NCBI RefSeq assembly: GCF_000381265.1
Contig: NZ_KB906255.1
Coordinates: forward strand, 356,495 to 420,494
DNA: 64,000 bases
DNA from: Curvibacter lanceolatus ATCC 14669
GTDB taxonomy: Bacteria > Pseudomonadota > Gammaproteobacteria > Burkholderiales > Burkholderiaceae_C
Direction: 5' to 3'
This document shows positions 5,857-44,736 of this stretch, one piece after another. Both the position numbers and the translations under genes were made by a program. Position 1 is the stretch's first letter. Each line of letters opens with the position of its first letter. The notes beneath the pieces were generated by a model. That model worked only from the letters and a program-made list of their open reading frames with translations. It was not told the DNA's origin and made no database searches.

Positions 5857-6027
5857 CAGCCCGCCGCCGGGCCGCCCCAAGGTGGGCTGGGCCTCCTCGG
5901 GGGGCAGCGACCACACGAAGTGAGGGAGCGTGGGGGCTCACAGTCCAGCCCGCCGCCGGGCCGCCCCCAGGCGGGCTGGGCCCCCTCGGGGGGCAGCGAC
6001 CACACGAAGTGAGGGAGCGTGGGGGCC
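5857..6027. repeat. Tandem dimer of an 82-bp GC-rich intergenic repeat (array A)
   Basis: Two copies, 5857-5938 and 5946-6027, of a unit that begins CAGCCCGCCGCCGGG, contains a CCCCCTCGGGGGG-type hairpin and ends CACACGAAGTGAGGGAGCG followed by TGGGGGC. The two units differ at only a few bases. They fill the gap between a plus-strand gene ending at 5855 and a minus-strand gene ending at 6032. A related dimer occurs at 43994-44169. Confidence 0.9.
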
Positions 6028-6031
6028 ACAT

Positions 6032-36796: not shown

Positions 36797-37321
36797 TTAC
36801 GAGGCAAGGTATCCGTTAGCGGCGTTGGTTTCATCGGAAAAATTGTATTCACCGGATTTACCTCCTCTCTTTTCTTGGACGCGGCATTCTTTCAGGACCA
36901 TCCCGCGATCCACGGCCTTACACATGTCATAGATGGTGAGGAGGGCGACTTGGCATGCCATCAGCGCTTCCATTTCCACACCCGTCTGCCCTCTGGTCTC
37001 GACGGTTGCACTGCAAAAAACCGCCGCAGGCCCGGACGCATCGGCATTTTTCAGAGAAAACTCAATAGCAACTCTTGTCAAGGCCAATGGATGGCACAGG
37101 GGTATCAGATCACTCGTTTTCTTGGCGGCCTGGATGCCTGCGATGCGCGCGACCCCCAAGACATCGCCTTTCTTGGCCGTACCTGATTCGATCAACTGTA
37201 AGGTGCCAACTTGTATGTTGATGTGGCCGACGGCGACCGCGATACGGTGGGTGTGTGCTTTGTCCCCCACATCAACCATATGGGCTTGTCCTTGTGCGTC
37301 GAAGTGGGTCAGTGAAGTCAT
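36797..37321 (-). CDS. moaC: Cyclic pyranopterin monophosphate synthase
   Basis: Second step of molybdenum-cofactor synthesis, converting 3',8-cH2GTP to cPMP. Core motifs [28 protein letters not shown] and [25 protein letters not shown] are complete. 174 aa, about 12 longer than usual owing to a polar tail. It stands alone among glycan and pilin genes; no other moa gene is nearby. It is divergent from tfpX. Confidence 0.95.
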
Positions 37322-37387
37322 AGTTGGCAGGGGAGAGAGGGCAAGTACATTTACGTTGGCTTGACTTTGTTCGTCGATCATACGTTT

Positions 37388-38149
37388 ATGAAACTGTTCG
37401 AGAGTCGCTGGCGTGCGTTTGGTGCGCACCTGTGCGTGAGTATGCTGGTTGCGGCCTTGGCCGCGTGCTTGGTCTTTGGTCTCTGGTACCCCTATCCCTA
37501 CCGCGATGTGTCTGGCGGTCGGGAGTTGTTCGTGTTGATGGCGGGGGTTGACGTGGTCATCGGGCCCTTGATCACCCTGATCATCTTCAACAAGGCCAAG
37601 AAGCCTCAGCGTGAGCTGCTCAGGGATATGGTCTGCATTGCCGTGCTGCAGATGGCGGCCTTGGCCTACGGACTCTGGACCGTGGCCTTGGCGAGGCCAG
37701 TGCATTTGGTGTTTGAGTACAACCGGTTCACCGTGGTCCATGCCGCTCAACTCTCGAAAGAGGCATTGTCCCTGGTACCCCGGGAGTTGGTAGCAACGCC
37801 GTGGACTGGGCCGACTGCTCTCGGCTTGCGACCGTTTCGCAGTCAAAAGGAGCAGATGGATGCGACCATGGATGCCCTCCAGGGGGCCCCGTTGGCGGCC
37901 CGTACCGATCTGTGGCAAAGCTTTGATGCCAGCCGCCAGGCTTTGCGTGCTGCCGCCAAGCCAATGACCGACTTGAAGCAGCGGACACCGCAGGCTTCGC
38001 CGCTGATCGATGCATGGCTCGCCAATTCCGGGCGTACATTGGGCGAACTGAGCTACGTTCCATTGGTGGGCCGTAAAACGTTCTGGACCGTGGTGTTGGA
38101 TGCGCAAACTGCCGATATCCTGGGCTACCTGCCTATCGATTCGTTCTGA
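37388..38149 (+). CDS. TfpX/TfpZ-family type IV pilin accessory protein
   Basis: Inner-membrane accessory protein that stabilises or modulates assembly of a particular pilin. The N-terminus [19 protein letters not shown] and the following [29 protein letters not shown] are characteristic of the family. Two or three N-terminal helices precede a periplasmic domain ending [19 protein letters not shown]. 253 aa. In related organisms such genes sit beside the pilin gene; here the glycan cluster and moaC separate it from pilA. The stop overlaps the next ATG by one base (TGATG). Confidence 0.85.
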
Positions 38150-39714
38150 TGTTCCAAGGCCTCGCCGTCGTGCTACCCAAGCCCATCGTGAACCGCTCCG
38201 ACCTTCGCCGCCGCTGGCTGGCCCCCCTGTCCCTGGCCCTGATGGCGGCCTTGGGTGCGCCCACGCTCAGCAGTGCCCAGCTCCCCGCCCTCGGCGACGG
38301 CGAAGGCATGACCCTGGGCGCCGAGCGCCGCCTGGGGGACCAGATTGCACGCGAGCTCTACCGCGACCCGGACTACCTCGATGACCCGGTGCTGCAGGAG
38401 TATGTGGAGGGCATCTGGCAGCAACTCATCCAGGCGGCCCGCCAGCGGGGCGAGCTCACGCCCGATCAGGACGAGCGCTTTGCCTGGCAGGTCTTGCTGG
38501 GCAAGGACCGCCAGGTCAACGCGTTTGCCCTGCCGGGCGGCTACATGGGCGTGTATCTGGGATTGATCGCCATCGTGGCCAACCGCGACGAGCTGGCCTC
38601 GGTGCTGGGGCATGAACTCAGCCACATCACGCAGCGCCACATCTCCCGCATGATGAGCAAGGACAGCCAGCAGACCCCTTTGCTGGTCGCCGCGCTGATC
38701 CTGGCTGCGCTGGCCGCCAGCAAGAGCCCTGATGCGGCCAGCGCCCTGGTGGTGGGCGGGCAGGCCCTCACGGTGCAGAACCAGCTCAAGTTCTCGCGCG
38801 ACATGGAACGCGAGGCCGACCGGGTGGGCTATGGCGTCATGACCCAGGCGGGTTTTGATGGCCAGGGCTTCGTCACCATGTTCGACAAGCTGCAGCAGGC
38901 CTCGCGCCTGAACGACAACGGCGCCTACCCCTACCTGCGCAGCCATCCGCTGACCACCGAGCGCATCGCCGACATGCAAGCCCGTCAGGAGCTGCGCCCG
39001 GGCAGCAAGGGGGTGGTGCCGACCACGCTGGAGCATGCCCTCATCATGGCCCGGGCCCGCGCCATCAGCGCCGACAACATCGAGCTGCAGCGCCAACGCC
39101 AGGCCGAGCCCGACGGGGCCGCCTTCCGCCAGCAGCCGCCCGTGCGCCAGGCGCAGGCCTTGTACGGTGCCGCGCTGGCCTCCATGCAACTGCGCGACTG
39201 GCAAAAAGCCCGTGATGCGGTCAACCGCCTGCAGCCCCTGGTGCAGTCCAGCCCCGAGGCCTTGCGCCTGCAGCGCCTGCTGGTGGCTGAGCTCGACCTG
39301 GCCACGGGCAAGCCCGCCACGGCGGCAGCCCTGCCGATGGGCGCTGAGGTGAGACGTCCGGAGCTGTTGCTGGGCACCCAGGGTCGCCTGGCCCTGGGCG
39401 GGTTGGATCCCGCCGAACAGACGGCCGAAGCCCTGCAGACCTGGGTGACCGTGCACCCCCACGATGGAACGGCATGGCAGTGGTTGTCACGCGCCTGGGG
39501 GGCCGCCGGCAAGCCCTTGCGCAGCCTGCGGGCCGAGGCCGAGGCGCAGGTGGCGCACTTCGACTACAGCGGCGCCATGGACCGCTTCAAGGCCGCGCAA
39601 GACATGGTGCGCCGCGGCGGCAGCGCCGGCGCCGACCACGTCGAGGCCTCGATCATCGACGCCCGCACCCGCGAGGTGGCCTCACTGCTGCGGGAACAGG
39701 CTGCGCAGCGCTGA
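38149..39714 (+). CDS. Periplasmic M48 metalloprotease, BepA/YfgC-like
   Basis: Zinc protease and chaperone expected to act in outer-membrane protein quality control. A signal peptide ends near SSAQ. The catalytic HEXXH is HELSH at residues 155-159, with the distal Glu in [12 protein letters not shown]-terminal helical TPR-like region (about residues 320-510) matches the BepA plan. 521 aa. It is translationally coupled to tfpX. The last 94 bases are duplicated at 41266-41359. Confidence 0.92.
39621..39714 (+). repeat. Direct repeat, left copy (functional 3' end of the M48 gene)
   Basis: Matches 41266-41359 over 94 bases with four mismatches. It ends exactly at the TGA stop. The sequences outside the repeat do not match. 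Confidence 0.92.
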
Positions 39715-39945
39715 ACAGGTCGTGAGCAGGTTGCCAAGTTCAGCGCCAAGATCATGCTTGGTTGGGGCTTCTGAAGAGATCCCGCTCACAACGGCGCCCG
39801 CTTGATTGGAGGGGGCGTCCTCATCGCGCTGAACCAGGACTGCCCAGTCTTTTGATGGGCCACCAACCGCGCACTGCTATTTGAATAGGAAGCTGGAGAT
39901 TGATCTTTCAGTGTCGTCTCCAATATCTAATCAGCACAAAGCTTG
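39715..39945. other. AT-richer gap between the M48 and FkbM genes
   Basis: No gene, promoter or terminator stands out. Composition shifts toward AT along it, marking entry into the inserted segment. Confidence 0.4.
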
Positions 39946-40869
39946 CTAAAAAACCTCTAATATAAGATCTCCGGCAAAATTATCGCCCTCAATATTTTTG
40001 ATTTTTGTATGGTATTTCTGATTTAGTATCAGTGAAAGTATTTTTCTTAATTTTGATGCGTCCGTGCCCCATGGGGGGGATTGGACTATTTTTCGTGTTA
40101 TTATTTTTCTGTCGAACGTGTCAGTAATTTTTTCTAGATTGAAATTTTTATCCCATGATTCAAAAAAAATAACTGCCTGGATATTTTTTGGGATGGATTT
40201 GGCGATGCCGATCAATACCGACTCTTCGTATCCTTCAACATCTATTTTTATGACTCCTCGATGAAGTCCTTTATTGGCGAGTGATTCGAATATCCCCTTC
40301 AACTCTTGCTCTGTATCTTTGATAGAGATTTCAACTTCTAAATAATTATTGCTGTCGAAATTTTCGAGTCCATCTTTCAAGCTCAGGATTTCTTTTGTAT
40401 AGCTGTTGGTCTCGTCGTTTATGAATGCACCTCCCCAGTTGTGCTTGGGAATGGTGAGCAGGCAGTTTTTATTCTCGGCTCCAAGCCCGTATTTGTGAAT
40501 GGTTATTTTCGAAGGCTCAAGACTTATGCTGGTGTTCACTTCTAGAATTTTGCAGCACAATGGATTGGGTTCAAACATATGAATTTCTGAAAACTCAAGG
40601 CCACTTTGGCAGGATGTCAATCCTATGTTTGCGCCAATATCAATCAAAAAATCCTTGTATCCCTCTGTGGTGTAGTGCTTGATTGAATTGCGGATTTTTT
40701 CTTCGTGGATTCCAATGATTTGAGGATCGATAGAGATAATGTCTCCACCCCTTAAAAAAAGGTGATTGCTGCTTTTCGTTAGCTTGCGAAAAAAATAGTG
40801 TTTGATGTTCTTCTTGACGGAGCTTAATACTGTTTCTTTGCTTATGTTGTATTCTTTCTCGTAATTCAT
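39946..40869 (-). CDS. FkbM-family methyltransferase (AT-rich, foreign composition)
   Basis: SAM-dependent O-methyltransferase family often acting on sugars or glycoconjugates. SAM motif FLIDIGANIGLTS, then IHMFEPNPLCC and the hallmark IKIDVEGYEESVL. 307 aa from the ATG at 40869. Codon use is strongly A/T-ending, with Lys and Asn runs, unlike any neighbour, so recent transfer is likely. It lies inverted inside a segment bounded by direct repeats of the M48 3' end. No other glycan gene is adjacent, though the pilin glycan cluster is 3 kb away. Confidence 0.88.
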   Translation of the reverse strand: MNYEKEYNISKETVLSSVKKNIKHYFFRKLTKSSNHLFLRGGDIISIDPQIIGIHEEKIRNSIKHYTTEGYKDFLIDIGANIGLTSCQSGLEFSEIHMFEPNPLCCKILEVNTSISLEPSKITIHKYGLGAENKNCLLTIPKHNWGGAFINDETNSYTKEILSLKDGLENFDSNNYLEVEISIKDTEQELKGIFESLANKGLHRGVIKIDVEGYEESVLIGIAKSIPKNIQAVIFFESWDKNFNLEKITDTFDRKIITRKIVQSPPWGTDASKLRKILSLILNQKYHTKIKNIEGDNFAGDLILEVF

Positions 40870-41265
40870 ATATTCTCCAGTCGTGCTGAATTTGGGAGGG
40901 TTTTTATGGATTGTTGAGCATGACAGAGGATTGACAAGAGAACTGGGGACTCCATTGGTGCCCAATTTCGCTTGCTAGCCACCCGCCGGCAAATACTTTG
41001 GAGATATGGATTTTTCGAACCCAGCCATCTCCATGAAGTTTCGCGGACGGCAGCTGCGGGCCAGAGGGGCTGCATTCGTCATGGTTGCCGGACATCCGGG
41101 CACGACTGGCCGGGGGGGGGCTCCTGCCGAGCAGGCGGCCAACGCACGGCCTCTCTGGCTGTGCAGCACTTTCGTGAGCTTGCGGCGTGGAATGGCGGTG
41201 AGATCGGTCAGCGCGGGACGCGGTTGCCAAGCTTGAGCAAGCCCCAGGTGGTGCGCTTGTGGAGC
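40870..41265. other. Non-coding or decayed segment between the FkbM gene and the right repeat
   Basis: The first 100 bases keep the AT-rich composition; from about 40975 the sequence is GC-rich again. Several short overlapping frames exist (for example 41006-41236), but none resembles a protein family I know and none has a convincing start. It may be remnant DNA of the transfer event. Confidence 0.45.
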
Positions 41266-41359
41266 CAGCGCCTGCGCCGACCACGTCGAGGCCTCGATCA
41301 TCGACGCCCGAACCCGCGAGGTGGCCTCACTGTTGCGGGAGCAGGCTGCGCAGCGCTGA
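41266..41359 (+). repeat. Direct repeat, right copy (relic of the M48 3' end)
   Basis: Encodes the last 30 codons of the M48 protease ([20 protein letters not shown]...) including the stop, without the rest of the gene. The minus strand of the same bases encodes the C-terminus of the holin-like protein. Confidence 0.92.
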
Positions 41360-43925: not shown

Positions 43926-43993
43926 CCCGACCTCACGCGCCTGATGGTGAACAGGGCGATTGCTTGATCAGGCGTGCTCTAGAACGAAGAGGT

Positions 43994-44169
43994 CAGGCCG
44001 GCGCCGGGCCGCCCCAAGGCGGCCTGCGGCCCCCTTTGGGGGGCAGCGACCACACGGAGTGAGGGAGCGTGGGGGCTAACAGTCCAGGCCGGCGCCGGGC
44101 CGCCCCAAGGCGGCCTGCGGCCCCCTTTGGGGGGCAGGGAGCGACACGAAGTGCGCGACCGTGGGGGCC
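43994..44169. repeat. Tandem dimer of the GC-rich intergenic repeat (array B)
   Basis: Two copies (43994-44077 and 44085-44169) related to array A at 5857-6027: the unit starts CAGGCCGGCGCCGGG, has a CCCCCTTTGGGGGG hairpin and ends near GGGAGCGTGGGGGC; the second copy is altered near its end. As in array A, it fills a gap between converging genes and stops six bases from the stop codon of the minus-strand gene. Confidence 0.88.
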
Positions 44170-44175
44170 AACAGT

Positions 44176-44736
44176 TCATTTCCAGCGCAGGCACTCGATT
44201 TCGACGGTGTCTTTCGAGTCGCTCATCATCAGCGCCCCCTCTTGCACCGTCGCCTGCAGCTGCATGCTGCGCTGCGCCAGCTTGGCCAGGGCCTGCGAGG
44301 CCTCGGTGGGCACGCGCCACACCTGCAGCTTGTCCATGCGGCTGACCTTGTTCTCCATGGTCTTCCACCACACCTCGGCGGCGTGGTGAAAGCAGTACAC
44401 CAGCACCTGGTCCGACTTCTGGCAGGCCTTGAGCATGGGCTTTTCCTCGGGCTGGCCCACTTCCACCCACACCCGCTTGTGCCCGGTGAAGTCGGTCAGC
44501 GACACATCGGGGTCGTCCGGGTCTGACAGGCCGGCGCCAAAGGCCAGGGTGCCGTCGCCGTTGCACACGTCCTGCAACTGGTGCGCCTGCAGGGCCAGGG
44601 CGGCCAGGCGGATCATCATGCGCTCGTCGGTCTCGCTGGGGTGGCGCGCCAGGGTCAGGGCGTGGTCCGCGTAGTAGTTGTGGTCGATGTCGGCAATCGA
44701 CAACGCGGCTTTGAAGATGGTGGATTTGAGAGCCAT
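44176..44736 (-). CDS. yaeQ: YaeQ-family protein
   Basis: 186 aa, with a PD-(D/E)xK-nuclease-like fold in the family's structures. Characteristic stretches: FKAALSIADIDHNYY, LTLARHPSETDERMMIRLAALAL, VWVEVGQPEEKPMLKA. E. coli YaeQ was reported to compensate loss of RfaH, but its molecular role is unsettled. The ATG at 44736 gives the standard length. Confidence 0.9.
   Translation of the reverse strand: MALKSTIFKAALSIADIDHNYYADHALTLARHPSETDERMMIRLAALALQAHQLQDVCNGDGTLAFGAGLSDPDDPDVSLTDFTGHKRVWVEVGQPEEKPMLKACQKSDQVLVYCFHHAAEVWWKTMENKVSRMDKLQVWRVPTEASQALAKLAQRSMQLQATVQEGALMMSDSKDTVEIECLRWK

Follow-up and report, generated by a model that had tools for sequence, protein, structure and literature searches.

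A single gene of the FkbM methyltransferase family, flanked by two copies of a 94-bp direct repeat, sits at the junction of an M48 peptidase gene and a convergent holin-like gene in Curvibacter lanceolatus ATCC 14669. We examined this locus within a 64,000-nucleotide stretch of the genome, referred to here as the window. The arrangement probably represents a real, one-off gene acquisition. The chances are about even that a foreign fragment carrying the FkbM gene was inserted at the overlap of the two convergent genes with 94 bp of the resident target duplicated, a process called insertion with long target duplication. It appears to be a neat additional case of a known insertion pattern, not a new mobile element. 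It is of interest as a clean single-gene gain with long target duplication in a host other than Helicobacter and with a cargo other than restriction-modification genes.

Organization of the repeat, the insert, and the neighboring genes

The two copies of the repeat differ at four positions (39628, 39666, 39688, and 39696 in the numbering of the left copy), and their longest identical run is 37 bp. For a random 94-bp placement, the chance of four or fewer mismatches is about 2e-47. The last base of the left copy is also the last base of the TGA stop codon of the M48 gene. The holin-like gene terminates inside the right copy, and the repeat thus serves both neighbors. Between the copies lie one intact FkbM-family gene and, on either side of it, a short scrap of DNA (Table 1).

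The FkbM reading frame matches PF05050 (E = 1.1e-7) and, above the cutoff of that model, TIGR01444 (E = 2.4e-16). It has a GC content of 37%, versus 70% for the M48 gene. The M48 gene matches PF01435 (E = 5.4e-33) and the BepA model NF052400 (E = 3.4e-72, which falls under that model's cutoff). These results confirm, in position as well as in the number of mismatches, an earlier note on this DNA that had described a 94-bp repeat around an AT-rich gene. They also uphold its view of the gene as a foreign insert beside an M48 gene whose 3′ end has been restored.

Table 1. Features of the FkbM locus, in window coordinates
Feature	Coordinates	Strand	Models matched
M48 peptidase gene, BepA-like, intact; its 3′ end is the left repeat copy	38149..39714	+	PF01435, NF052400
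Left repeat copy; has the base of C. gracilis (G002) and G004 at all four mismatch sites	39621..39714	+	
Insert, 1,551 bp; missing from 8 of 8 sampled genus mates	39715..41265		
Left scrap, 231 bp, 54% GC; no gene recognized	39715..39945		
FkbM-family methyltransferase gene, 307 aa, open frame, 37% GC	39946..40869	-	PF05050, TIGR01444
Right scrap, 396 bp, 60% GC; no gene recognized; possible 47-bp dnaX-like patch (by eye) at 41019-41065	40870..41265		
Right repeat copy; contains the 3′ end of the holin-like gene; four sites unlike the left copy, G002, and G004	41266..41359		
Holin-like membrane protein gene (Phage_holin_4_2), 3′ end within the right repeat copy; start inferred from an internal ATG	41327..~41680	-	PF04020 (E = 5.8e-34)

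The insertion site is empty in related genomes

As the earlier note had anticipated, relatives carry an empty site: in all eight other Curvibacter genomes searched, the insert is missing and the M48 gene continues straight into the downstream sequence. The closest sampled relative is Curvibacter gracilis (G002), to which the contig is mostly ~96% identical at the nucleotide level. When aligned to C. gracilis, the left and right flanks of the insert overlap by exactly 94 bp at the empty site. Both marks of insertion with long target duplication are therefore present, namely an empty site in a close relative and a repeat that is single-copy there. The two kinds of cases that the earlier note had named as contrary to its reading, a repeat without the insert and an insert without the repeat, were not seen.

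Long flank overlaps at inserts were not found in the other gaps between long alignments when contig C3 was compared with 400 kb of G002. The sole other 94-bp flank overlap in this comparison reflects a palindromic repeat present in tandem and involves no insert. GC-rich, REP-like palindromic repeats of ~89-94 bp occur between genes of the window as tandem pairs at 43990-44180 and 5857-6030, and the one at 44 kb is single in C. gracilis. Separately, contig C3 carries a 1.43-kb insert relative to C. gracilis at 237638-239065 (L030 17638-19065), with a HipA-like frame recognized by eye and no flank duplication seen.

The duplication spans a conserved overlap of convergent genes

The M48 gene and its PF04020 neighbor form a strongly kept gene overlap. 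We sampled 80 of 312 confirmed M48 relatives in named genomes (L072-L151), mostly Comamonadaceae by record title, and both genes were within reach in 72 of these loci. In every one of the 72, the M48 gene and the PF04020 membrane protein gene are convergent neighbors. Judged by aligned ends, the genes overlap in 68 loci and lie 34-90 bp apart in the other four, with one value common to 65. Judged by stop codons, 36 loci share the 33-bp overlap of the source genome, 26 overlap by 11-45 bp, and four have gaps. Six further stop-codon values (-650 to -1616) were taken as artefacts, as the aligned-end measure did not reproduce them.

The holin-like gene was out of reach in the remaining eight of the 80 loci. 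Four of these (L111, L124, L122, and L123) continue into other genes, one (L146) has an unrelated gene directly after the M48 gene, and another (L149) has a transposase-like frame, recognized by eye, ~1.35 kb downstream. Sequence L120 ends 455 bp beyond the M48 gene, and L131 has no M48 stop codon within its contig. An insert at the M48/holin-like junction was found in none of the 72 named loci that have both genes.

This overlap bears directly on how the repeat is to be read. Because the ends of the two genes overlap by 33 bp, a plain insertion would truncate one of them. The 94-bp duplication spans the overlap with 61 bp to spare, and both genes are whole. Since only a duplication at least as long as the overlap leaves both genes intact, selection would have retained the footprint. 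The repeat therefore need not be an attachment site, and given such a simple selective reason for keeping the duplication, no dedicated element is needed. If this view is correct, then foreign genes found between other formerly overlapping convergent genes are predicted to be flanked by duplications no shorter than the overlap.

Under insertion with long target duplication, a foreign DNA fragment with the FkbM gene would have entered the junction of the two convergent overlapping host genes, probably once and in the lineage of the source Curvibacter. Recombination, apparently without a dedicated enzyme, would have duplicated 94 bp of the resident target, with the left copy completing the M48 gene and the right copy the holin-like gene. 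No longer encoding M48, the right copy may then have drifted.

The right copy of the repeat is the one that differs

At all four mismatches, the left copy has the base that is shared by C. gracilis (G002) and G004, and the right copy is the one that differs. These two relatives agree against the left copy at only two sites, and the right copy has the left base at both. Therefore, the right copy did not come from the G002 or G004 lineages. Among more distant Curvibacter, G001 and G003 also carry these two bases, and G005 carries one of them. Judging from these comparisons, a resident origin of both copies is likely, even though the bases common to both may be old and not private to this lineage.

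Two of the four changes lie in sequence that is now noncoding. By eye, the other two comprise one synonymous change and one F to L change in the holin-like frame. To set a time scale, we compared fourfold degenerate sites with those of G002 and found that 4.6% differ across all 34,110 sites, a value that may be low because antisense frames were kept. These sites come from 112 open frames with a length of 300 aa or more, and frames were dropped if they had >4% amino acid difference, <88% identity, <90% coverage, or alignment gaps. At ~2.3% per lineage, 2.2 changes are expected since the split, versus the four seen on one lineage (P = 0.17 for at least four in 94). The four changes may mean that the event took place close to the split, or that sequence change has been slightly faster at this locus. 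The 95% confidence interval for 4/94 is 1.2-10.5%, which is compatible with a duplication that took place at about the time of the split from G002 or later.

Origin of the inserted DNA

Relatives of the FkbM protein were not recovered from plasmids, phages, or viral contigs, and the insert DNA had no match in plasmids. Among 150 genomes of the family, the FkbM protein matched only itself at E ≤ 1e-20. The same was true at E ≤ 1e-30 among 369 genomes of the class and 398 of the phylum; these samples share genomes with each other and include the source genome. At the DNA level, short partial matches to the insert were present in seven of 398 other family genomes. Three of these matches fall in FkbM-like genes (40-41% protein identity), all in one other genus.

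Searches of the scraps against PHROGs, NCBIfam, and Rfam gave nothing convincing as a known gene. Several patches noticed by eye were considered and set aside as too weak. The 47-bp dnaX-like patch is matched in two of the 398 other genomes of the family, with a best E of 6.8e-5. Patches resembling hemD and OmpA have one genome each, and a CoxG-like patch of 22-26 bp was matched in the organism's own genome at E = 0.003. An integron attC site was likewise rejected for a 9-bp inverted repeat at 39738 and 39826, where the order of the core sites is wrong (assessed by eye).

Other explanations for the repeat-flanked gene

Integrative elements that enter the 3′ ends of tRNA or protein genes leave a direct repeat of the 3′ end and restore the gene, and attachment sites in gene 3′ ends often end exactly at the gene end. 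The locus resembles such elements in that the repeat is the M48 3′ end and the M48 gene is restored; it is unlike them in that no integrase was recognized, the site is unused in the relatives examined, and the copies are not identical. We regard it as rather unlikely that the insert is what remains of an element that encoded an integrase, had its attachment site at the M48 3′ end, and later lost everything except the FkbM gene. Such an origin would account for a repeat that ends exactly at the stop codon, which must be a coincidence if the target was duplicated at random and thus counts against our preferred explanation. Two tRNA genes in the source genome (6.83 Mb, 72 contigs) are also suggestive. 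The 3′ end of a tRNA-Leu gene is repeated downstream over 55 bp with 100% identity and 1,130 bp between (C5 250674-251913; L223 10674-11913), and the 3′ end of a tRNA-Cys gene is repeated over 45 bp, also with 100% identity, in copies 4.8 kb apart (C5 258197-263063). In the smaller, tRNA-Leu stretch, an integrase was not recognized in the two frames scanned, and one weak HTH_17 match fell below the cutoff. Small, apparently degraded attachment-type inserts therefore occur in this genome, but with identical copies, whereas the repeat studied here has four mismatches. Furthermore, none of the frames scanned in the insert (the FkbM frame, plus five scrap frames of which all were compared with PHROGs and four with NCBIfam as well) was recognized as an integrase or transposase, as the earlier note had maintained. 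The lack of inserts at the 72 named junctions also speaks against an element that targets the M48 3′ end. The same can be said of the M48 tail: it was not recovered from viral contigs, and its matches in phages (one record) and plasmids (four records) were all marginal, at 37-66 bp. A third copy of the repeat was not found in the source genome, and the idea that other genes might be bounded by it found no support there. Thus, where the earlier note had proposed the footprint of an element that enters and restores gene 3′ ends, the insert, the empty site, and the restored M48 gene hold, whereas the site-targeting element is not supported, and the overlap with the holin-like gene had been overlooked.

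Alternatively, circular or concatenated DNA from a related strain, carrying an M48 tail together with the FkbM gene, might have been captured by a crossover in the tail (either Campbell type or homology-facilitated illegitimate recombination), so that the two copies are two alleles. This is improbable in our estimation, even though homology-facilitated illegitimate recombination has been described in bacteria, according to the available portions of the reports (PMC3240628, PMC5361080). In the reading frame of M48, three of the four differences are synonymous (P ~0.08), which hints that the right copy diverged elsewhere, as part of a coding sequence. G001 carries the base of the right copy at two of the four mismatches, but it is no donor, since it differs from either copy at 20 sites over the 94 bp. 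In 200-base windows compared with G002, the M48 gene averages 94.6% identity and the right flank 96.8%; however, a similar small dip at M48 separates G002 from G004 (87.8% versus 88.9%), and these alignments give no clear support for the import of a complete second M48 allele. Capture of this kind also requires a donor molecule with only ~94 bp of the M48 gene, and none was found. A tandem duplication of the junction, followed by insertion and deletion inside it, would yield direct repeats around any later insert. It would require several events, however, and no tandem copy is present in the eight genus mates, which makes this order of events very unlikely.

As for the route by which insertion with long target duplication might have occurred, Ku was found in none of nine genus genomes (the control search was positive in one of 14 named genomes, Bacillus subtilis), and Ku-based end joining is unlikely here for this reason. 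A survey of 2.03 Mb of the 6.8-Mb genome yielded 13 direct-repeat pairs: the repeat studied here, two of the tRNA type, two also present in G002, and eight others. No second case of an insert with target duplication was shown in the surveyed 2.03 Mb. There is perhaps a small chance that single nonmobile genes can be inserted by a recombinase-free route in which ~100 bp of the target is duplicated, and that this route is what allows foreign genes to become established between overlapping convergent genes. If so, convergent overlaps would be a natural trap that records recombinase-free insertions.

Comparison with known systems

Insertion with long target duplication was reportedly described in Helicobacter pylori by Nobusato et al. 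in 2000. In the available portions of later papers, the term is applied to H. pylori restriction-modification genes (PMC1643837, PMC3031569, PMC4978471, PMC3154945), and restriction-modification cargo is presented as frequent but not required (PMC1643837). On the strength of these portions, the pattern is known but poorly understood. The Curvibacter locus resembles those cases, as they are described there, in that the gene is present in one of two close genomes and the long direct repeat is single in the empty genome. It is unlike the H. pylori set in its host and in its cargo, which is an FkbM methyltransferase and not a restriction-modification system. It also differs in its target, an overlap between convergent genes, where the duplication is required.

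Homology-facilitated illegitimate recombination is similar, in the portions of the reports noted above, to the extent that a foreign gene is gained beside a gene with a 3′ fragment downstream; here, in contrast, there is no clear sign of an imported M48 body. Host-sequence repeats around transposed genes have also been reported in Arabidopsis, according to the accessible part of one paper (PMC2869330). Our literature search found no paper on convergent overlapping genes with target duplication and horizontal transfer, or on FkbM in Curvibacter.

Genomic surroundings and possible role of the FkbM gene

The usual substrates of FkbM enzymes are sugars or related groups, which they methylate. A block of polysaccharide genes (~29.3-36.8 kb), including genes for glycosyltransferases and a polysaccharide-export-type protein, is located 3 kb from the insert. 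We infer a role for the FkbM protein in the methylation of surface polysaccharide, where it would probably act as a sugar O-methyltransferase.

The polysaccharide block does not align with C. gracilis and is low in GC from 33 kb on. Between this block and the M48 gene, at 36800-38050, moaC and a neighboring gene are ~48-75% identical to their C. gracilis counterparts, and identities of 45-80% were obtained between other Curvibacter pairs (four genomes). From the M48 gene rightwards, unlike in the moaC region, most windows are 90-100% identical to C. gracilis. From these identities, it seems that moaC was swapped together with the polysaccharide block.
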